Positions 20,821 through 27,793 of a stretch of 64,000 nt of DNA are shown here, in pieces. Source of the DNA: Mariniflexile sp. AS56 (lineage in GTDB: Bacteria; Bacteroidota; Bacteroidia; Flavobacteriales; Flavobacteriaceae); the NCBI RefSeq assembly GCF_030552475.1, contig NZ_JAUPED010000005.1:248001-312000 (forward strand), written 5' to 3'. The stretch's first letter is position 1. Each line of letters starts with the position of its first letter. Position numbers and translations under genes: made by a program. The notes under the pieces were generated by a model. That model did no database searches, was not told where the DNA came from, and saw only the letters and a list, made by a program, of their open reading frames with translations.

Positions 20821-21504
20821 TTACTCATGAAAAATACTAGTTTTCCCTTTCTTTTTTCTGTAGACTTTAATGATATAAATTAGAGTCCAAACCAGGAATA
20901 AACTCAAGAAAAAGTAAGTGGCTATTACGTATCCTATTCTATATTTTGGAGGTTTACCTAAATATTGACTAATGTCTTTTTTGTTGTTTATTTTAACGGA
21001 TTTAAAGAGTTCGGTTTTAATGTCGGGGTTAAACTGCGTATCACTGGCATAGAAAAAAGTATATAAGTTTTTATTTAATAAATAAAATTCGGCTTCGTAA
21101 GTTGGTGTTTCTAAATCGTTTGCGAATTTTAAATTATATCCCGTAAAACCTTCTTTCTTAACCAGTGTTGTGGTTTTTAAATAATAAGGAACTCTATATC
21201 TCATTCGTGCTATAACACGATTGTATTCATCAATTAAACTGGTGTAATCGTATGGTAACCTAGAAAGACTTTGTTTTTGGTCTTCATTTTCAAAAAGCAC
21301 TTTTTGAACAATAAAGCTGTAAGCATCTGTTTTAAAACTTATTTGGTGTATTTTAAGGCCATCCACAAGTGTTTCCGATTCAACGAAATTTTTTGGCACA
21401 TCTAAACTTATGAAGTCGTCTAACTTATGCGAGAATTTAGCGTGGTTTTGAGCAGTTATAGTGACGGTAATTAAAACGAAAAAATATATAAAAAGTATTT
21501 TCAT
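20821..21504 (-). CDS. Exported, membrane-anchored protein of unknown function
   Basis: I do not recognise the family. The 227-residue protein has a signal peptide (MKILFIYFFVLITVTITAQ), a soluble extracytoplasmic part of about 165 residues, and one membrane helix (about 190-212) followed by a basic cytoplasmic tail RKKKGKTS. The soluble part (FISLDVPKNFVESETLVDGLKI, described as a strand-rich start) recalls small domains that sense or bind at the membrane. No partner gene is evident. The AT-rich 230 nt upstream holds no promoter I can name with confidence. Confidence 0.7.
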   Translation of the reverse strand: MKILFIYFFVLITVTITAQNHAKFSHKLDDFISLDVPKNFVESETLVDGLKIHQISFKTDAYSFIVQKVLFENEDQKQSLSRLPYDYTSLIDEYNRVIARMRYRVPYYLKTTTLVKKEGFTGYNLKFANDLETPTYEAEFYLLNKNLYTFFYASDTQFNPDIKTELFKSVKINNKKDISQYLGKPPKYRIGYVIATYFFLSLFLVWTLIYIIKVYRKKKGKTSIFHE

Positions 21505-21735
21505 AGTGGTATGTAATTCTTAATAACCTTTTAAAACTGGTTAAAAAATATGAATAAGTCTAAAGTATGCATTTTTTCAATTCCATATACATTGCAGATG
21601 TATATTTAATCAAACATTATTATTGGCGCAGCAAAAATTTGTTAATAACCCTTCTAAATTTTAACAATTTTCAGTTGAAAATATAAGTAATTTTAAGGCT
21701 TTAATGTATGGAAAATATATCTTGTTATCTCTAAA

Positions 21736-22809
21736 ATGGACTCAAAAACACCGCTAAAAGGCCGAGGCGCACAACTAAATGTACCCAATCGATTTTTCGA
21801 ATTGAGTCATGAAATGCGCGATGATTTTTTAGAGTTCTGCCATAAAGAAGGTGAGGAAAGCGATAAAAACAAAACCCAATACCTGGAAGTGTTTCCTAAA
21901 ACCATTGTAAATAAAGTAGAAAGTCCAGATATTGGTATGTCTTACTCCATGAATGCTTACCAAGGCTGTGAGCATGGTTGTATTTATTGTTATGCACGAA
22001 ATAGTCATGAATTTTGGGGGTATAGTGCTGGTTTAGATTTTGAACGCCGAATTATGGTTAAAAAAGATGCGCCAAAACTATTAGAGGAGTTATTGAAAAA
22101 AAAAAGTTGGCAAGCGCACCCTATTGTGATGTCTGGTAATACCGATTGTTACCAACCTGCGGAAAAACATTTCGAGATTACCCGAAAATGTTTGGAAGTG
22201 TTTCTTAAATATAAACACCCTGTAGCTATTATTACGAAAAACGCCTTAATTCTAAGAGATTTAGATCTATTAAAAGAACTTTCAAAGGATAATTTAATTG
22301 GGGTGAATATGTCTATTACATCCCTTTCGGAAGAAACTAGACGTGTTTTAGAGCCGAGAACCACCACTATTAGTAAGCGTTTAGAAACGGTGAACATATT
22401 AAGCGCACATGGTATACCTGTAAATGTGATGTTAGCTCCTATTATTCCGTCTATTAACAGTCATGAAATTTTATCATTAGCTAAAGCAGCCTCTGATAGT
22501 GGTGCCTTAGGCATTGCACATACCATTGTGAGGCTTAACGGGGCAATTGGTGCTATTTTTAGTGATTGGATACATAAAACCATGCCTGATAAGGCTGAAA
22601 AAGTATTGCGCCAAATTGAATGTTGCCACGGCGGATCGTTAAACGATTCGCGGTATGGTTCTAGAATGCACGGCGAGGGTAAAATAGCTGAACAAATTAA
22701 TAGTTTAGTACAGTTAGCGAAGCTTAAATATTTTAAAAATAAGCAGATGCCTAAACTAAATACCCAATTGCATGCGCAGTATAAAGGTGGGCAATTGAAA
22801 TTGTTTTAA
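21736..22809 (+). CDS. PA0069-family radical SAM protein
   Basis: The 357-residue protein has the radical-SAM cluster motif in YQGCEHGCIYCYAR (CxxxCxxC, about residues 78-91), followed by the family mark NSHEFWGYSAGLDFE. Later sequence MSGNTDCYQPAE and VMLAPIIPSINSHEI fits the same family. Members are uncharacterised relatives of spore photoproduct lyase. They probably bind one 4Fe-4S cluster and cleave SAM, with unknown substrate. The C-terminal part (GSRMHGEGKIAEQI) is also typical. It is monocistronic and followed by a strong bidirectional hairpin. Confidence 0.9.
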   Translation: MDSKTPLKGRGAQLNVPNRFFELSHEMRDDFLEFCHKEGEESDKNKTQYLEVFPKTIVNKVESPDIGMSYSMNAYQGCEHGCIYCYARNSHEFWGYSAGLDFERRIMVKKDAPKLLEELLKKKSWQAHPIVMSGNTDCYQPAEKHFEITRKCLEVFLKYKHPVAIITKNALILRDLDLLKELSKDNLIGVNMSITSLSEETRRVLEPRTTTISKRLETVNILSAHGIPVNVMLAPIIPSINSHEILSLAKAASDSGALGIAHTIVRLNGAIGAIFSDWIHKTMPDKAEKVLRQIECCHGGSLNDSRYGSRMHGEGKIAEQINSLVQLAKLKYFKNKQMPKLNTQLHAQYKGGQLKLF

Positions 22810-22812
22810 ATA

Positions 22813-22841
22813 AAAAGAGCGAACCCAGGGCTCGCTCTTTT
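22813..22841. terminator. Bidirectional Rho-independent terminator
   Basis: Arms AAAAGAGCGA (22813-22822) and TCGCTCTTTT (22832-22841) pair fully around a 9-nt loop and carry T-runs on both strands. It separates the convergent radical SAM gene and the secreted-protein gene at 22863. Confidence 0.85.
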
Positions 22842-22862
22842 AATAAAATAATTAAGGGTTGG

Positions 22863-23480
22863 TTAGTTAATAATTTCTTTTGTGAACTCGCGTCCTTCTG
22901 TTTTAAAAATTAGTTTGTAGTCACCTTTTTGTTTTCCTGACAGTCTGTAAATACGACTTAGGTTTTCAGTGTTTGTAATTTTTTCAGAATAAATAAGTTC
23001 TGGTGTACTAGAAATTGACTCACTGCCTGTAAAATAAATGGCAATATCCATAGGCGCTTTACTTAAAGAAAGTCTAGATACATAAACAATATCACCTTTT
23101 ATGCGCGTTACCGGTTTAAAAATGGTGTTTTCCATGTCTTTTTTAAATGTAACCGTGTCTGATAATACCGTAAATGGAATGGTTTGAATTTCTACATCTT
23201 TATCTAGTTCAAATATGTAGCCCCCGTTTGGTAGTGATGTTAAATCGAAGCCTTTCGTGTAGATTCCAGATTGAAGAATGAGTTCTTTATATAGTACAAT
23301 ACCGTTAATATCTTTAATAGATAATAGGTTTCCTTGCTTTACATTGTTTAAAGTAAGAGAGGTTCTTTTAGCATCATTTTCGATTGAGAAAAATGCTTTT
23401 TCATTTGCGAAACTTAACAAGGTAGCAAACAATGTTACCATTAAGAATCCTTTTTTTGAGATGTTTAATACGTTTTTCAT
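22863..23480 (-). CDS. Secreted protein, copy 1 of a local paralogue family
   Basis: The product of 205 residues begins at the ATG at 23478-23480 (MKNVLNISKKGFLMVTLF), which gives a normal signal peptide ending LLSFANE. An in-frame TTG at 23510 lies inside the promoter box and is unlikely. The mature part is strand-rich, with NLLSIKDINGIVLYKEL and GFDLTSLPNGGYIFELDKD, which resembles a secretion-tail-like beta sandwich, then a second half that ends in a conserved EFTKEIIN. It is about half identical to the protein at 23777-24373. Function is unknown. An upstream inverted motif shared with copies 2 and 3 suggests common control. Confidence 0.8.
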   Translation of the reverse strand: MKNVLNISKKGFLMVTLFATLLSFANEKAFFSIENDAKRTSLTLNNVKQGNLLSIKDINGIVLYKELILQSGIYTKGFDLTSLPNGGYIFELDKDVEIQTIPFTVLSDTVTFKKDMENTIFKPVTRIKGDIVYVSRLSLSKAPMDIAIYFTGSESISSTPELIYSEKITNTENLSRIYRLSGKQKGDYKLIFKTEGREFTKEIIN

Positions 23481-23507
23481 AAGTTGTTTTTTTAACGTTT
23501 TATAAGA

Positions 23508-23515
23508 CAAATATA
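23508..23515 (-). promoter_or_regulatory. -7 box of paralogue copy 1
   Basis: The minus strand reads TATATTTG (TAnnTTTG), 28 nt before the chosen ATG. The same box occurs before copies 2 and 3, each at the same distance from the shared inverted motif. Confidence 0.65.
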
Positions 23516-23558
23516 TAACCGTTTTTTAGTTTTTAAATCACTGATATTGATGCATTTG

Positions 23559-23614
23559 TGTGCTAAATTATCTGTTATTATTACATCAATTTTAGGTAAA
23601 ATTAATATAGAGTA
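23559..23614. promoter_or_regulatory. Candidate operator 1: inverted motif upstream of copy 1
   Basis: The left arm TGTGCTAAATTA (23559-23570) and the right arm TTAATATAGAGTA (23602-23614) are imperfect inverted copies of TRTGCTAWATTA. The GCTA of the left arm begins 54 nt, and the opposite G of TAG 102 nt, from the start of the -7 box. Both distances are the same at the other two copies. This fits an activator site upstream of the promoter. Confidence 0.55.
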
Positions 23615-23725
23615 TAATGGGGGTAATTAAGTATACCCTATGTGTTTATTGAAATGAAGAAAAGAGGGAAAGGGAAATTTTAAAAGCAGTAACTAAGTAC
23701 TTGAGTTGAGATTAAAGCAAAAAAA

Positions 23726-23748
23726 AAGTGAGCCACCACAGCTCACTT
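23726..23748 (-). terminator. Terminator of paralogue copy 2
   Basis: Arms AAGTGAGC (23726-23733) and GCTCACTT (23741-23748) pair around a 7-nt loop, and a long T-run follows on the minus strand. It lies 28 nt after the stop of the gene at 23777. The same hairpin recurs at 24764-24786. Confidence 0.85.
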
Positions 23749-23776
23749 TACCAACTAAACTAAATAAGACATTAAA

Positions 23777-24373
23777 CTAATTGTTAATGAATTTTGTGTA
23801 CTCTTTATTATCAGAGCTAATTACTATTTTATAACTTCCTTTTTCTAATTTGTAAACTCTTTCAATAGCTTGAACATCTGTAATGCTTTCAGCGTGTAAT
23901 AATTCGTATTCGTTATTGGCATTCGAGTAAACACTAATTTTAACAGCTTCCGAGTTTGGAGACAATTTTGTAATGTATAACAAGTTGTTTTTTTGTACGA
24001 TATATGGTTTGTAGCTTGTTGTTTCTTTTTCTTTGTTTACAACAATGCTTTTAAAGCTAATTGTAAATGGGATCGTTTTAATTTCAATGTCCTTATCTAA
24101 TTCAAAAACATAATCACCATCAGGAAGTGATGTAAAGTCGAACCCTTTTGTGTAGATTCCCGCTTTTTCAATTTGTTCTGAATATAATACGATACCGTTG
24201 GCATCTTTAATAGACAATTTGTTTCCAGCTTTTACATCTGTTAAAGTAAGTGCCGTTTTTTTTGCGTCATCTTTAATAGAGGTAAATGATGCTTCATTCG
24301 CGAAACTTAATAAGCTAGTAAATAGTGTTACTATTAGGAATCCTTTTTTTGTGTTGTTTAATATATTTTTCAT
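23777..24373 (-). CDS. Secreted protein, copy 2 of a local paralogue family
   Basis: This 198-residue protein has the signal peptide MKNILNNTKKGFLIVTLF ending LLSFANE, and a mature part parallel to copy 1: NKLSIKDANGIVLYSEQI, GFDFTSLPDGDYVFELDKD and a C-terminal SSDNKEYTKFINN. No domain with known function is evident. The size, the export signal and the repeated G-x-Y-x-F-E-L-D-K-D strand suggest a small periplasmic or surface beta-sandwich. It has its own promoter and terminator and is monocistronic. The neighbours are copy 1 and a decayed third copy, so this is a tandem family. Confidence 0.82.
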   Translation of the reverse strand: MKNILNNTKKGFLIVTLFTSLLSFANEASFTSIKDDAKKTALTLTDVKAGNKLSIKDANGIVLYSEQIEKAGIYTKGFDFTSLPDGDYVFELDKDIEIKTIPFTISFKSIVVNKEKETTSYKPYIVQKNNLLYITKLSPNSEAVKISVYSNANNEYELLHAESITDVQAIERVYKLEKGSYKIVISSDNKEYTKFINN

Positions 24374-24401
24374 GACTTGTGTTTTTTAATGTTTGATAGG
24401 G

Positions 24402-24409
24402 CAAATATA
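24402..24409 (-). promoter_or_regulatory. -7 box of paralogue copy 2
   Basis: TATATTTG on the minus strand, 28 nt before the ATG at 24373, matching TAnnTTTG and the box of copy 1 in sequence and position. Confidence 0.65.
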
Positions 24410-24452
24410 TGGTGCGTTTTCGGCTGGCAAAACATTGATTTTGACACATATC

Positions 24453-24508
24453 TGTGCTAAATTATCTGTTATGATAATATTAACATTGTGTTAAGTTAAT
24501 ATAGCACA
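24453..24508. promoter_or_regulatory. Candidate operator 2: inverted motif upstream of copy 2
   Basis: The left arm TGTGCTAAATTA (24453-24464) and the right arm TTAATATAGCACA (24496-24508) form a good inverted repeat of TGTGCTAWATTAA. The distances from the -7 box (54 and 102 nt) equal those at copies 1 and 3. Confidence 0.6.
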
Positions 24509-24757
24509 CATCGATGGTAAATATGAACAGTTGAGGAAAAAGCGATTTTGAAAATTTGTAAAATAGGCTAAGAAGTGCCTACGAAGTATAATGTTTTAAA
24601 TGTCTTCTAAAAAAGTAGTTTAAAAGGATATGGAGTTATTATTAAAAAGCGAATGCTTTTAAAAACAACTATGAATTTTATAGATAGAATGTCTTATATA
24701 TAATAGGTAGAAAATGCGAGTTAAATATATGGGAAGAAGTATTTGAAAATAGGGCAC
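24509..24757. other. Gene-free AT-rich spacer
   Basis: I see no gene, hairpin or promoter that I can support between operator 2 and the terminator of the decayed third copy. It is probably old sequence of the duplicated unit that has drifted. Confidence 0.5.
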
Positions 24758-24763
24758 AAAAAA

Positions 24764-24786
24764 AAGTGAGCCACCACAGCTCACTT
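24764..24786 (-). terminator. Terminator of decayed paralogue copy 3
   Basis: Arms AAGTGAGC (24764-24771) and GCTCACTT (24779-24786) with a 7-nt loop are identical to the copy-2 terminator, with a T-run on the minus strand. About 105 nt around it are nearly identical to the copy-2 terminator and gene end (23720-23829). Confidence 0.8.
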
Positions 24787-24814
24787 TACCAACTAAACTA
24801 AATAAGACATTAAA

Positions 24815-24984
24815 CTAATTATTAATGAATATTGTATACTCTGTGTTATGAGAGTTAATTTTTTGTTTCTTTTTCTAAAACTTTTATGTTAGTATGGGTT
24901 AAAAACCTACTACCATATTGTAAAACGCAATAATCTTACAATTATTGTAATAAATAACAACTTAATGTTGTTGTCTATTTTTAT
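24815..24984 (-). pseudogene. Decayed copy 3 of the secreted-protein family
   Basis: Only the two ends of the gene remain. The start codon of copies 1 and 2 is ATA here (24982-24984) within the same context AAGTCATA. The 3' end still reads INSHNTEYTIFINN then TAG, matching SSDNKEYTKFINN of copy 2. About 430 nt of the middle are gone, and what is left has stops. The -7 box, the upstream inverted motif and the terminator of the unit are all kept, so a short untranslated transcript of about 260 nt could still be made. Confidence 0.8.
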
Positions 24985-25033
24985 GACTTCTGAAATACTA
25001 TTCTTTAACAGAAATACCTAATGTTCTACGGTA

Positions 25034-25041
25034 CAAATATA
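25034..25041 (-). promoter_or_regulatory. -7 box kept upstream of decayed copy 3
   Basis: TATATTTG on the minus strand, matching the boxes of copies 1 and 2 although the gene behind it is dead. Confidence 0.6.
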
Positions 25042-25083
25042 TGATGGAATAAGAGTTAATAAAACAACAAATTTGACCAATAT

Positions 25084-25141
25084 ATATGCTATATTGACTG
25101 TTAACTAAATGTTAAATGGATTAAAAGGTAATATAGCATAT
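25084..25141. promoter_or_regulatory. Candidate operator 3: inverted motif shared by copy 3 and the AraC gene
   Basis: Arms ATATGCTATATT (25084-25095) and AATATAGCATAT (25130-25141) are a perfect 12-nt inverted repeat. Seen from the minus-strand box at 25034 the distances are again 54 and 102 nt. Seen from the plus-strand box at 25183-25190 the right arm is 53 nt away, nearly a mirror image. The site could serve both divergent promoters and autoregulate the AraC gene. Confidence 0.6.
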
Positions 25142-25182
25142 AATCGGGTTAAATAAAGCTATGTTTGCATAATAATATATTG

Positions 25183-25190
25183 TAATTTTG
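25183..25190 (+). promoter_or_regulatory. -7 box of the AraC gene at 25208
   Basis: TAATTTTG matches TAnnTTTG, 17 nt before the ATG. A TTTG at 25164-25167 could be a -33 element, with a short 15-nt spacer. Confidence 0.55.
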
Positions 25191-25207
25191 CATCTAAATT
25201 AATTTGT

Positions 25208-26080
25208 ATGATTAATAAAAAACCAACTTTTAGGAAGCTCTCCCCAAGTTTCGGAAGTTCTATATTAGTTAAGCAACATGTAGAAACAATTGATAAAGAC
25301 GGCGCTTACTGGCATTTCCATCCAGAATTAGAGCTCATTTATATAAACAAAGGGCAGGGTAAAACACATATAGGAAACCATTTATCCTATTTTAATAACA
25401 GTCAATTAATACTTATTGGGTCTAATTTACCGCATAATGGCTTTACCGATAGGTTAACGGCCAACGGTACCGAGACAGCAGTACAATTTAAATCTAATTT
25501 CTTAGGTGACGATTTTTTGAGTATCCCAGAAATGGCGAATATTGTGTCGTTATTTGATAGAGCCAGACAAGGCATTCGATTTAAAGTAGAAACTAAAAAA
25601 GTAATAGGGCCTAAAATTGATAAACTTCTGGAACATCAAGGCTTAAAGCGTGTTTTGAAGTTTCTAGATATTCTAAATTACTTAGCAACTACCGAAGATT
25701 ACACTCTGTTAAATGCCGATGGGTTTGCTTTTGAAGCAGAACCACAAGACAGTTCTAAAATTGACGTGATTTTTAAATACGTGAATAAGAACTTTCAAAA
25801 CCATATTACTTTAGATGAAATTGCAGATGAGGTGAGTATGACGGTACCAGCATTTTGTAGGTATTTTAAAAAAGCAACCGGAAAAACATTTACACAATTA
25901 GTGAATGAATATAGGGTGGTACACGCTACTAAATTGCTCAATGAAAGCCAAATGAGTATTGCTGATATTTGTTTTGAGTGCGGTTTTAATAATTTCTCGC
26001 ATTTCAATAAGCAGTTTAATGAAATTACAGGTAAAAGTGCCTCAAATTATAGAAAGGAAATTAAGTTAATTATTCAATAA
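25208..26080 (+). CDS. AraC-family regulator with N-terminal cupin domain
   Basis: The 290-residue protein has an N-terminal cupin-type sensor (about residues 20-85, with YWHFHPELELIYINKG and the metal- or sugar-binding-like histidines HFHPE) and a C-terminal AraC domain (about 188-288, with ITLDEIADEVSMTVPAFCRYF and a second helix-turn-helix ending CGFNNFSHFNKQF). Such cupin-AraC proteins usually respond to sugars. The start context has its own -7 box. It sits beside the three-copy secreted family and shares an inverted motif with all three promoters, so it is a candidate activator of that family. The stop at 26080 abuts the convergent HD gene at 26081. Confidence 0.92.
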   Translation: MINKKPTFRKLSPSFGSSILVKQHVETIDKDGAYWHFHPELELIYINKGQGKTHIGNHLSYFNNSQLILIGSNLPHNGFTDRLTANGTETAVQFKSNFLGDDFLSIPEMANIVSLFDRARQGIRFKVETKKVIGPKIDKLLEHQGLKRVLKFLDILNYLATTEDYTLLNADGFAFEAEPQDSSKIDVIFKYVNKNFQNHITLDEIADEVSMTVPAFCRYFKKATGKTFTQLVNEYRVVHATKLLNESQMSIADICFECGFNNFSHFNKQFNEITGKSASNYRKEIKLIIQ

Positions 26081-26734
26081 TTAACTTAAGCCTTCCCATT
26101 CTGTATAAAACTGGTCAAGATATAAGGTCATAAAATCATGTCTTTTCGTGGCTATATCTTTACCTGTTTTTGTGTTCATTTTATCTTTTAGAAGTAGCAA
26201 TTTTTCATAGAAATGATTGATTGTTGGGGCGTTTGATGCTTTATATTCTGCCTTCGTCATCTGTAAATTAGGCTTAATGTCTGGATTGTAAATTTCTCTA
26301 TTTTTAAAACCGCCGTAATTAAAACAACGTGCAATACCAATAGCGCCAATAGCATCCAATCTATCGGCATCTTGTATAACATCCAGTTCAGCCGATTTAA
26401 ATTTCTGGGCCTCGTGACCGCCTTTAAATGAGATGTTTTCAATAATTTTTACAACATGTTCAATCACTGTCGAGTCTACATTCAGGTTGAACAAAAATTG
26501 ACGTGCTTTGTTAGGGCCAACCGTTTCGTCGCCGTCGTGAAATTTACTGTCGGCAATATCATGAAGCAAGGCACCAAGTGAAACTATAAATAGGTCTACC
26601 TTTTCTTTTTTAGCTATGAGTAGTGCGTTTTTATACACCCTTTCTATGTGAAACCAATCGTGCCCACCTTCAGCGTCAATAAGGGTGTCTTTTACAAAAT
26701 CGATGGTTTTATTTATTATTTGTTCTGAAGTCAT
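26081..26734 (-). CDS. HD-domain phosphohydrolase
   Basis: This 217-residue cytoplasmic protein belongs to the HD superfamily of metal-dependent phosphohydrolases. The expected metal ligands are seen: GGHDWFHIERV with H25 and H29, LLHDIADSKFHDG with the HD pair H58/D59, and IQDADRLDAIG with a later Asp near 128. YedJ/YpgQ-type proteins of this size are thought to act on nucleotides. The substrate here is not known. It is convergent with the AraC gene with no bases between the stop codons. Confidence 0.88.
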   Translation of the reverse strand: MTSEQIINKTIDFVKDTLIDAEGGHDWFHIERVYKNALLIAKKEKVDLFIVSLGALLHDIADSKFHDGDETVGPNKARQFLFNLNVDSTVIEHVVKIIENISFKGGHEAQKFKSAELDVIQDADRLDAIGAIGIARCFNYGGFKNREIYNPDIKPNLQMTKAEYKASNAPTINHFYEKLLLLKDKMNTKTGKDIATKRHDFMTLYLDQFYTEWEGLS

Positions 26735-26749
26735 AAGGGTATAAAAATA

Positions 26750-26779
26750 AAAATTCCTTTCGGTTTAGAAAGGAATTTT
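26750..26779 (-). terminator. Terminator of the acyl-ACP desaturase gene
   Basis: Arms AAAATTCCTTTC (26750-26761) and GAAAGGAATTTT (26768-26779) pair fully around a 6-nt loop 25 nt after the desaturase stop. AT-rich sequence follows. It would also insulate the HD gene. Confidence 0.8.
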
Positions 26780-26803
26780 ATAAAGATATATAAGGTTGTT
26801 CTA

Positions 26804-27793
26804 TTACTTAATAATAGCAGGTTCTACCCATTTAAATTGAAATGAGTTTTCCGGAATTTTAATACGTTCAGATAAACGATACATTCTTGATGGAAGCTTC
26901 ATTAAATAATCTCTAGCTTTTTCAGCTTCATCATTAAGTCCAGTTACTTTATCAATTTCCCAACGTTTGATTAATTTATCTAAAATGTCTACATAATCCG
27001 TAGATGTGTAAACACCAATACGTTGTGCCGTATTAGAAAACTCTTCAAAAGCAGAGCTAATTTGGTTTCCAGATTCTCTTAAAAAATGCGCAGGCATGGT
27101 TATTTTAAGTTTCATCATATCATGAAACGCCATCATCATTTGGCTAGGATCTACTTTAAAGATACGTTCAACAAACTCAGAATAAGCATGGTGGTGTCTC
27201 ATTTCATCTCCAGAAATAATTTGACACATTTTAGCCAATTGCTTATTACCACTTTTCTTAGCGATTTTAGCAACACGGTTATGTGAAATATAAGTCGCTA
27301 ATTCTTGAAAACTAGTGTATACAAAGTTTTTATAGGGATCTCTATCAGTTCCAATATCAAAACCATCTGCAATTAAATACTGTGTGGTTCTTTCAATTTC
27401 TTTCATGTTAACACGTCCAGAAAGGTATAAGTACTTGTTAAGTACATCACCATGGCGGTTTTCTTCGCCGGTCCAGTGGCGTACCCATTTAGACCAGCCG
27501 TTGCGCTCTACTTGCCCAACACCTTCAACATCCATTAACCACGATTCGTAGGTTGGTAAGGCTTCTTCGGTAATCATATCACCTACTAAAACTACCCAAA
27601 AATCATAAGGTAATTCTTTTGAAAGTTCTCTTATTTCACGTACTTCTTCAAAAAAAGTATCACTTTCAGAATTTGGTAAAAAATCTGAAGGTTGCCAAAT
27701 GGTATCAACAGGTATTAAATACTTTTGTATTAAAGCTTCAACGTCCTTTTCCAAAAATTGCATTACTTCTAGTCTTACATTCTTTAACGACAT
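26804..27793 (-). CDS. Acyl-ACP desaturase (ferritin-like di-iron)
   Basis: This 329-residue soluble di-iron enzyme introduces a cis double bond into acyl-ACP, so it helps set membrane fluidity. The two ligand motifs are clear: EENRHG (E110, E111, H114) and DEMRHH (E197, H200). Length and the N-terminal region (KNVRLEVMQFLEKDVEALI) fit the plant-like stearoyl-ACP desaturase family found in Flavobacteriia. The gene starts 11 nt after plsC, so the two probably form a lipid operon. Electrons would come from ferredoxin, which is not encoded nearby. Confidence 0.94.
   Translation of the reverse strand: MSLKNVRLEVMQFLEKDVEALIQKYLIPVDTIWQPSDFLPNSESDTFFEEVREIRELSKELPYDFWVVLVGDMITEEALPTYESWLMDVEGVGQVERNGWSKWVRHWTGEENRHGDVLNKYLYLSGRVNMKEIERTTQYLIADGFDIGTDRDPYKNFVYTSFQELATYISHNRVAKIAKKSGNKQLAKMCQIISGDEMRHHHAYSEFVERIFKVDPSQMMMAFHDMMKLKITMPAHFLRESGNQISSAFEEFSNTAQRIGVYTSTDYVDILDKLIKRWEIDKVTGLNDEAEKARDYLMKLPSRMYRLSERIKIPENSFQFKWVEPAIIK

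Follow-up and report, generated by a model that had tools for sequence, protein, structure and literature searches.

A candidate AraC-type regulon of secreted proteins and a probable small RNA gene in Flavobacteriaceae

What does an AraC-type regulator control when three promoters with the same inverted motif lie beside its gene? The question arises from a 64,000-nucleotide stretch of the Mariniflexile sp. AS56 genome (the window), for which a preliminary description had proposed that such a regulator controls a small family of secreted proteins, a third copy of which was considered dead, as well as its own gene. We followed this proposal through the window, through related loci, for which the best 80 of 240 related stretches were kept, and through 199 Flavobacteriaceae genomes.

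The regulator and its secreted neighbours

The regulator gene (25208-26080, plus strand) encodes an AraC/XylS-type protein of 290 amino acids with a C-terminal helix-turn-helix (HTH) domain, which matches Pfam HTH_18 (PF12833; E=3.9e-22, 78.8 bits) and PF00165 (54.1 bits), both above cut-off. The N-terminal part consists mostly of beta strands and has no Pfam match. The structure model of the protein has a mean pLDDT of 80.4, and by sequence comparison its solved relatives match the DNA-binding part only. No named AraC subfamily (RhaS, AraC, PocR or others) could be assigned from NCBIfam, where the 25 families listed of the 32 matched all scored below their curated equivalog cut-offs.

Divergent from araC, on the minus strand, lie genes for two secreted two-domain proteins, paralogue 1 (22863-23480, 205 amino acids) and paralogue 2 (23777-24373, 198 amino acids). 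This arrangement recurs in relatives: araC with the divergent secreted family was found at 72 of 80 loci (126 units), with one to four tandem secreted genes per locus, and the family is present in 108 of the 199 genomes at E<=1e-10. By their beta-sandwich fold and by weak profile matches, these proteins resemble the DUF3244 and Por secretion tail (T9SS sorting) domains, but the window family has two sandwich domains and is without a large cargo domain. Paralogue 1 scored 22.5 bits against DUF3244 (PF11589), below the gathering cut-off of 25, and paralogue 2 gave no match at E<=0.001; among 79 family members, 42 matched DUF3244 weakly and 30 matched the T9SS sorting domain PF18962, in both cases at E<=0.01. 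One of three family members run against NCBIfam matched TIGR04183 (19.4 bits, cut-off 23), and neither window paralogue had an NCBIfam match.

Operator geometry at three promoters and in relatives

The -7 box of paralogue 1 (23508-23515, minus strand, first base 23515) is accompanied by an operator at 23559-23614 (minus strand, profile E=6.4e-20), the arms of which show no mismatch (23559-23570) and 2 mismatches (23603-23614) to TRTGCTAWATTA. For paralogue 2, the -7 box lies at 24402-24409 (minus strand, first base 24409) and the operator at 24453-24508 (minus strand, profile E=2.0e-22), with two perfect arms (24453-24464 and 24497-24508). The third unit, which is noncoding and adjoins araC, has the -7 box TATATTTG at 25034-25041 (minus strand, promoter-profile match E=2.8e-20). 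With araC it has in common a divergent operator (25083-25142) that places one arm beside each promoter; these arms, 25085-25096 (1 mismatch) and 25129-25140 (perfect), are 44 bp apart. The promoter-profile model that scored this genome was built without window sequences.

In all three minus-strand units the outer arm ends fall at -55 and -99 from the first base of the -7 box, and the geometry is therefore identical, as had been described. The distance originally given for the left arm, 54 nt, agrees with our 55 within one base, whereas the 102 nt given for the right arm measured 99, a gap that probably reflects a different choice of arm end. What had been reported as a perfect 12-nt inverted repeat at the third site is perfect over 13 nt (25083-25095 and 25130-25142). 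Its nearly symmetric placement to the araC promoter, put at 53 nt, was also borne out: the arm at 25129 is 54 nt from the araC -7 box TAATTTTG (25183-25190, plus strand), and in 76 of 80 loci this box and the nearer arm of the common site are separated by 54 or 55 nt.

When promoters from relatives were aligned, leaving out 7 of 129 units without a usable -7 box, the proximal arm lay at -55 in 122 of 122 units and the distal arm at -99 in 83 of them, compared with a largest per-column count of 4 in 200 base shuffles; the arm pattern had been slightly widened (W for A/T) after the relatives had been viewed. The distal arm was absent within 2 mismatches in 13 of the 122 units, and other units had best arm spacings of, for example, 32-33, 54 or 65 bp. 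The few cases with 32-33 bp instead of 44 bp suggest a one-turn helical shift. The conserved footprint exceeds the 12-nt arms, running from about -63 to -20, and farther out there is a distal block from -99, with a weaker one at -120. The outcome named beforehand as refuting the proposal, arms no more conserved than their surroundings, did not occur in relatives.

Model R1 was built from 72 of 106 non-redundant units from outside the window. The promoter profile was present in 127 of the 199 sampled Flavobacteriaceae genomes, 124 of them among the 133 that have an AraC ortholog and 3 among the 66 that lack one (Fisher p about 6e-38, kinship ignored). Because the family-wide model searches scored only the best candidates per genome, under stricter filters, the absences are upper bounds. 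Nine AraC-bearing genomes without a profile match count against our best explanation; in three of these that were inspected, the arm pattern gave nothing in G150 and G189, and the proximal arm only in G135. The profile was present without a strong AraC match in G111 and G113. Six genomes (G011, G107, L002, L018, L062 and L066) also keep operator-like sites at secreted genes far from araC, at distances of 37-270 kb or on separate contigs. Comparison across loci and genomes thus shows the operator, its spacing and its co-occurrence with AraC at the level of sequence.

In the strain's own genome, single arms were not enriched (259 against 242 for a reversed control, 1 mismatch allowed). The two-arm pattern, at up to 3 mismatches, found the three sites and two poor ones, and its control found one. 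Only three matches to the promoter profile fell below E=1e-19; the next ranks were the same places in the opposite reading, one of them the araC side, followed by matches at E=0.012 and weaker (150 of 7396 first-look candidates scored, 18 matches listed at E<=10). The genome-wide search recovered the window sites and, among the scored candidates, no further credible one: within that set, the proposed regulon is local and narrow in this genome. Five of the 13 further matches were inspected as possible regulon sites: L118, L120 and L121 lie inside ORFs and were dropped, as were L119 and L122, which lie near ORF starts and lack a convincing site.

Two other accounts of the motif have to be weighed here. 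Equal spacing could be the mere trace of recent tandem duplication, given that the units are paralogous tandem copies and that units 2 and 3 hardly differ at their 3' ends. The comparison already contradicts this reading, which we consider very improbable: the same spacing is constant across many genera while much of the surrounding sequence is unconserved, and nearly the same spacing is seen at the araC promoter, which is no copy of the promoters of the secreted genes. It is also conceivable that the motif is bound by another regulator, in control of araC and of the secreted genes alike, and that the AraC protein acts elsewhere; the broad conserved block from -63 to -20 could hold more than one site. 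We think this improbable given the 124 genomes in which profile and AraC ortholog occur together, against 3 and 9 discordant ones, and given sites that persist both near araC and at remote secreted genes; moreover, one of the 3, G020, in which no AraC ortholog was counted, has a shortened araC-like ORF beside a secreted gene. Taken with the conserved spacing and with only three good promoters in the strain's own genome, co-occurrence and remote sites argue that the AraC-type protein most likely controls the local secreted family and its own gene.

The third unit as a probable RNA gene

The predicted noncoding transcript of the third unit (24757-25029, minus strand) is about 273 nt long, its ends inferred from the -7 box and the terminator. 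It contains no ORF of at least 150 amino acids, and its fold has a z score of -2.24, with 4 of 200 shuffles as good. Near its end lies a conserved 3' module (24753-24830, minus strand; E=3.8e-15, this copy being one of the 60 rows of the module model that scored it). The module, about 75 nt, consists of an AU-rich stretch that hardly varies and a terminator hairpin whose loop is conserved, the hairpin here lying at 24763-24787 (minus strand) and being followed by a T run. It is often preceded by a small hairpin, which in the window lies just 5' of it (24838-24855, minus strand); the 34 nt spanning this hairpin had z below -1 in 33 of 42 noncoding units (mean -1.99), and the 40 nt preceding that segment in 9 of 41 (mean -0.20). 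The terminator hairpin covaries: pairs with both partners changed were seen in 21, 2 and 1 of 60 sequences. Over its 5' half, by comparison, the structure predicted for the module showed almost no covariation. An E-value-mode Rfam search of 21000-27500 gave 13 matches, all below gathering scores.

The module also forms the 3' untranslated region (UTR) of some secreted-protein mRNAs. In the window it makes up the 3' terminal part of paralogue 2, its 3' UTR included (23715-23792, minus strand), covering the last codons and the stop (E=7.3e-15, this copy also being a row of the model); paralogue 1 has a different hairpin at its 3' end and lacks the module. We counted 107 copies in 64 of the 81 sequences kept, 55 in coding 3' UTRs and 52 noncoding, where the coding label follows a distance rule (L026 is coding by this rule and noncoding in the identity analysis) and one L021 record has a negative start and an empty sequence. 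By blastn, the module was not found in the coding units of 16 of 37 coding AraC-proximal loci. It counts against our best explanation that many lineages lack the module, that in coding units it is partly coding sequence (FINN-stop codons), and that its terminator would be somewhat conserved anyway. Module matches occurred in 31 of the 199 genomes, and each of the 57 lay no more than 1.6 kb from araC or from a secreted gene; 168 genomes had no match at E<=1e-4.

An AraC-proximal unit without an ORF of at least 150 codons, with promoter and 3' module, was found in 42 of 80 neighbourhoods (the window and 79 loci). On the AraC tree, about 10 switches between coding and noncoding states were counted, 6 of them forced by supported branches. 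Mean identity between loci, from 70 random pairs drawn from 20 chosen loci, was 0.92 for the module (72 nt), 0.69 for the promoter and 0.74 for araC DNA, with 0.36 for the internal stretch (shuffled, 0.31) and 0.39 downstream. Module conservation is thus also shown by comparison of sequences.

Could the third unit nevertheless be only a decaying pseudogene, the module a leftover terminator, while AraC controls the secreted genes and itself? Since araC needs the common operator, survival of the operator would be explained; the internal part of the unit is unconserved, and two loci of the noncoding class (L026 and L072) still hold ORF fragments. Yet the -7 box, which faces away from araC and is not needed by it, is intact in 42 of 43 ORF-less AraC-proximal units, and the 92% identity of the module exceeds that of araC coding DNA. 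In 24 of the 42 noncoding loci, the module persists in a fetched stretch from which module-bearing coding copies are absent. In five genomes (G029, G040, G054, G136 and G172) the sole module match lies between araC and the nearest secreted gene, and in a sixth, G107, it lies beside araC with the nearest secreted gene 109 kb off. Tamlana nanhaiensis (L022) has six copies that lack an ORF. All six lie 137-140 nt downstream of a -7 box, and their proximal arms, placed at 55 nt, have no more than 1 mismatch; the distal arms have 3-4 mismatches in 4 of the 6, and 2 of the 6 have a two-arm promoter by strict criteria. At one locus, L002, a remote coding copy carries the module, so conversion between copies is possible there. 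Since the unit retains a promoter together with a module that exceeds araC coding DNA in conservation, we consider the pseudogene reading unlikely and the label of dead copy probably wrong. More likely, the third unit is an AraC-controlled small RNA gene, derived from a protein gene minus its coding part, with a predicted promoter and terminator.

A proposed regulon with three outputs

We favour, with a probability of about 0.68, a local autoregulated AraC-type regulon with secreted proteins, araC and a noncoding RNA as its outputs. AraC would bind the two inverted half-sites, spaced by 44 bp, that precede promoters containing a TAnnTTTG box, and the arm at -55 from the -7 box would let it activate transcription. 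The AraC-proximal intergenic operator would serve both directions, so that AraC would also control its own gene. The outputs would then be one to four tandem genes for secreted proteins with two beta-sandwich domains, araC itself, and the noncoding RNA gene adjoining it. We infer that AraC is the binder, that it activates and does not repress, that the RNA is transcribed and acts by base pairing, and that a signal is sensed. The original proposal, control of the secreted family and of araC, gains from synteny, co-occurrence, spacing and the remote loci; its dead copy was not supported.

Through its 3' end the secreted-protein mRNA would most likely serve an additional function; the AraC-proximal copy would, in many lineages, have lost its ORF and kept the RNA role alone, the RNA probably acting through base pairing. 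We lean, by a little, towards small RNAs having been born repeatedly at this locus, each time as an araC-adjacent paralogue lost its ORF and kept promoter and module, with AraC running a protein arm and an RNA arm through a single operator design. Promoter and module would have been retained because the mRNA 3' end already had an RNA-level function.

AraC of the Escherichia coli arabinose operon is an autoregulated AraC/XylS-family regulator with a divergent target. The present system is alike in its AraC-type HTH, in a regulator divergent from its target with a common regulatory region, and in half-site-like blocks 21 nt apart in direct orientation. It differs in its main element, an inverted pair with a 44-bp spacing that recurs at every target promoter, and in its targets, which are secreted beta-sandwich proteins and a probable RNA. 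A second likeness is to 3' UTR-derived small RNAs, as far as these are covered in passages of a review (PMC9438474) and of a Bacteroides thetaiotaomicron map (PMC7366714): a conserved mRNA 3' end, a Rho-independent terminator and a module from the stop codon. Relative to what those passages describe, many genomes here have a separate noncoding copy under a promoter of the same type, the coding or noncoding state has switched repeatedly, and a module-bearing coding copy is absent from the fetched stretch in 24 of 42 loci. Neither the regulon nor the RNA is described in the literature searched, which included passages of PMC9723704 and covered few subscription journals.

If the proposal is true, about two thirds of the sampled Flavobacteriaceae (127 of 199) would have this regulon, with defined sites, and an RNA family without an Rfam match here would be added. 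Since living genomes hold four states (a coding unit with or without the module, a noncoding unit, and arrays of noncoding units), the question of how an mRNA 3' end becomes a free-standing regulatory RNA would be testable in marine bacteria.

A search for targets of the candidate RNA, by antisense matching, by duplex ranking of 341 leaders drawn from the window plus 20 stretches of the strain's own genome, and by pairing with regulon leaders, found no convincing one. The antisense of 21 module nt, at up to 3 mismatches, matched the module's own two copies and one other place (control, 1 match). That place, with 2 mismatches, precedes the start of a SusC-like gene by about 15 nt. The leader of this gene ranked third of 341 by duplex energy (-21.1; mean -11.5, sd 3.0) and was not an outlier; it is a weak lead. 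Within the regulon, the module paired more weakly than shuffled controls with the leaders of araC (-20.8 against a mean of -27.2) and paralogue 1 (-21.9 against -26.4), and more strongly with that of paralogue 2 (-32.2 against -26.3, sd 3.7).

A conserved two-arm promoter beside araC

The preliminary description placed three promoters of identical geometry next to an AraC gene in the window, two of them (units 1 and 2) preceding secreted paralogues and the third (unit 3) proximal to araC, each with two inverted 12-nt arms upstream of its -7 box (TAnnTTTG). We found the promoters and their arms at these places. With the initial base of the -7 box as reference, the outer arm ends lay at -55 and -99 in 3/3 units, which bears out the identical geometry; the right arm, placed at 102 nt in that description, comes to 99 nt by this count.

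We then searched for relatives of the AraC protein and kept the best 80 of 240 related stretches as loci, among which the nearest named relative by AraC was Mariniflexile gromovii (97% identity). The genome that holds the window is itself Mariniflexile-like, within the Flavobacteriaceae. The secreted family was divergent from araC in 72 of the 80 loci, with 126 units occurring one to four in tandem. A gapless promoter alignment anchored on the -7 box (122 units, 3 from the window and 119 from relatives; 7/129 dropped) revealed a conserved block nearly unbroken over -63 to -20, a distal block from -99, and a third, weaker block at -120. With at most two mismatches allowed, 122/122 units had the proximal arm at -55 and 83/122 the distal arm at -99, compared to a shuffle maximum per column of 4. 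A looser pattern, TATRCTNNWTTAAC with 3 mismatches, matched the -99 block in 95/122 units and a direct copy 21 nt further upstream in 90/122, and is unspecific for both, as it was also frequent at -94 (58 units), -72 (42), and -83 (36). On the araC side, a TAnnTTTG box was spaced 54 nt from the arms in 73 loci and 55 nt in three, giving 76/80; the site was absent in three loci, and one more had too little upstream sequence.

Within the window's own genome, single arms were not enriched. A genome-wide search with the two-arm pattern recovered the three window sites, and elsewhere only two poor sites (control, 1). A promoter model using sequence alone, derived from 72 units outside the window, matched all three window promoters at E<1e-19; its next matches were two of the same window places on the opposite strand, one being the araC side, and the remainder were weak (E=0.012 onward). 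Five of these weak matches were inspected as further regulon sites and dropped.

Across a survey of 199 Flavobacteriaceae genomes, the secreted family was found in 108 (E<=1e-10), the AraC ortholog in 133 (E<=1e-80), and the promoter profile in 127 (E<=1e-4). Profile and AraC were concordant in 124 (both) plus 63 (neither) genomes, although the co-occurrence p-value is a guide only because the test ignores kinship. In six genomes, secreted genes lay away from araC yet carried operator-like sites, although in some of these the arms were weaker or spaced by 33 bp: at ~270 kb (G011), ~109 kb (G107), 51 kb (genome of locus L002), and ~37 kb (genome of L018), and on contigs other than araC's for L062 and L066. 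Judged by comparative standards applied to sequence, the regulon is real, and it is local.

A probable RNA gene in the ORF-less unit

Unit 3 had been called a dead third copy, a view that is probably wrong, as the unit retains a promoter and a 3' module whose conservation exceeds that of araC DNA. Scanning the window and 79 loci for ATG-started ORFs of at least 150 codons downstream of the araC-proximal promoter (L019, which ends at a contig end, was left out), we found an ORF in 37 and none in 43. Of these 43 ORF-less units, the window's included, 42 carried a conserved ~75-nt 3' element with a terminator hairpin (the module, also present in the 3' UTR of paralogue 2; exception, L071), and 42 had a -7 box matching TANNTTTG (exception, L010). 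The distance from box to module start ranged from 85 to 403 nt in 42 noncoding units. Over 70 pairs among 20 chosen loci, mean identity was 0.92 for the module, compared to 0.69 for the promoter and 0.74 for araC DNA; the internal part reached 0.36 (shuffled null, 0.31) and the downstream part 0.39.

Among 60 sequences, the terminator hairpin had pairs with both sides changed in 21, 2, and 1; almost no covariation was seen in the 5' half of the module structure as predicted, and that half gains no support from it. A short hairpin was predicted just upstream of the module in most noncoding units despite differing sequence (mean z, -1.99; 33/42 below -1), compared to a mean z of -0.20 (9/41 below -1) for the 40 nt before it. 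The module model found two copies in the window's own genome, both in the window locus and both among the model's 60 rows, and nothing good beyond them (next match, E=0.26). The survey yielded 57 copies in 31/199 genomes, none of them farther than 1.6 kb from araC or a secreted gene.

Given this conservation, the supposed dead copy probably conceals an RNA gene, the more surprising part of the result. A decaying pseudogene would hardly be expected to retain both a promoter facing away from araC and a 3' end conserved beyond a coding gene. Conversion by coding copies could maintain the module in ORF-less units, and the genome of L002 does have a remote secreted gene with a module. It is a poor explanation for 24/42 loci, in which the fetched stretch held no module-bearing coding copy; 18 of those 24 had a secreted gene there. 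The two secreted loci fetched from L062's genome also lacked the module. Conversion fares worse still in six genomes (G029, G040, G054, G107, G136, and G172) whose sole module match sits, from its coordinates, in an ORF-less unit.

In Tamlana nanhaiensis (L022:500-2516), six ORF-less module copies follow one another. All six are preceded by a -7 box at 137-140 nt and have the proximal arm 55 nt from that box (<=1 mismatch); their distal arms have 0 to 4 mismatches. An internal stretch with GGTGGT is common to these copies. To fit the AraC tree, the noncoding state requires 10 changes, 6 of them forced by supported branches. The tree gives no direction; ORF loss is the simplest view of these changes, since the coding frame ends within the module.

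Proposed mechanism and relation to known systems

Anatomy, conservation, spacing, and co-occurrence are established by the comparisons above; the steps that follow are inferred. We propose that AraC binds the arms and would act as an activator, since the conserved proximal arm sits just upstream of the promoter. Transcription would start 12 nt from the first -7 box base, by analogy with a Flavobacterium psychrophilum map, in which the box lies at -12 to -5 (PMC9723704). The unit 3 RNA would then be made and work by pairing. Outside the locus, the antisense of the module matched best at G000:C34:44537-44557 (own genome; locus L176), a statistically unremarkable site. A SusC-like gene starts ~15 nt downstream of it, beside a LacI-like regulator gene; the SusC-like gene is a possible target, as a lead only. 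Of known systems, the regulon most resembles autoregulated AraC systems, and the module RNA most resembles 3' UTR-derived small RNAs. Compared to both, the recurrent coding/noncoding change leaving an RNA gene is unusual, and we found no description of the regulon or RNA in the open-licence papers searched.

The proteins and additional sites

The secreted paralogues, 52% identical, were the only family members found in their genome. The paralogue 2 model (mean pLDDT, 84) has beta strands after a low-confidence, signal-peptide-like start, and we read the modeled strands as two sandwich domains. By Foldseek, the model resembled fibronectin III and Ig pairs as well as the C-terminal domain of RgpB; as whole-chain TM-scores were low, the fold class alone can be relied on. 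The N-terminal part of AraC has many beta strands, and none of the matches listed placed the protein in a named NCBIfam subfamily. In seven fetched genomes of more distant Flavobacteriaceae (L143, L147, L148, L149, L151, L152, and L154), an AraC of the same kind is divergent from a shorter protein (113-126 aa) that looks secreted and may be a one-domain form.

In L162 (G020:C4), an araC-like ORF beside a secreted gene (1793-2272) has only 159 codons, so this araC is perhaps interrupted; that may be why one of the three profile-bearing genomes without a strong AraC match appears to lack the regulator. Two-arm promoter-like sites lie downstream of araC at L144:2698 and L145:3028 (-), with no ORF of at least 90 aa directly behind them and no module by blastn. 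In L018's genome, a promoter-like site with a module heads the remote secreted cluster (L170:4095-4308, -); its proximal arm has 1 mismatch, there is no clear distal arm, and no ORF of at least 90 aa lies between site and module. The 3' end of paralogue 1 (window 22805-22850, -) lacks the module and instead forms another terminator-like hairpin (GAGCGAGCCC TGGGTTCGCTC).
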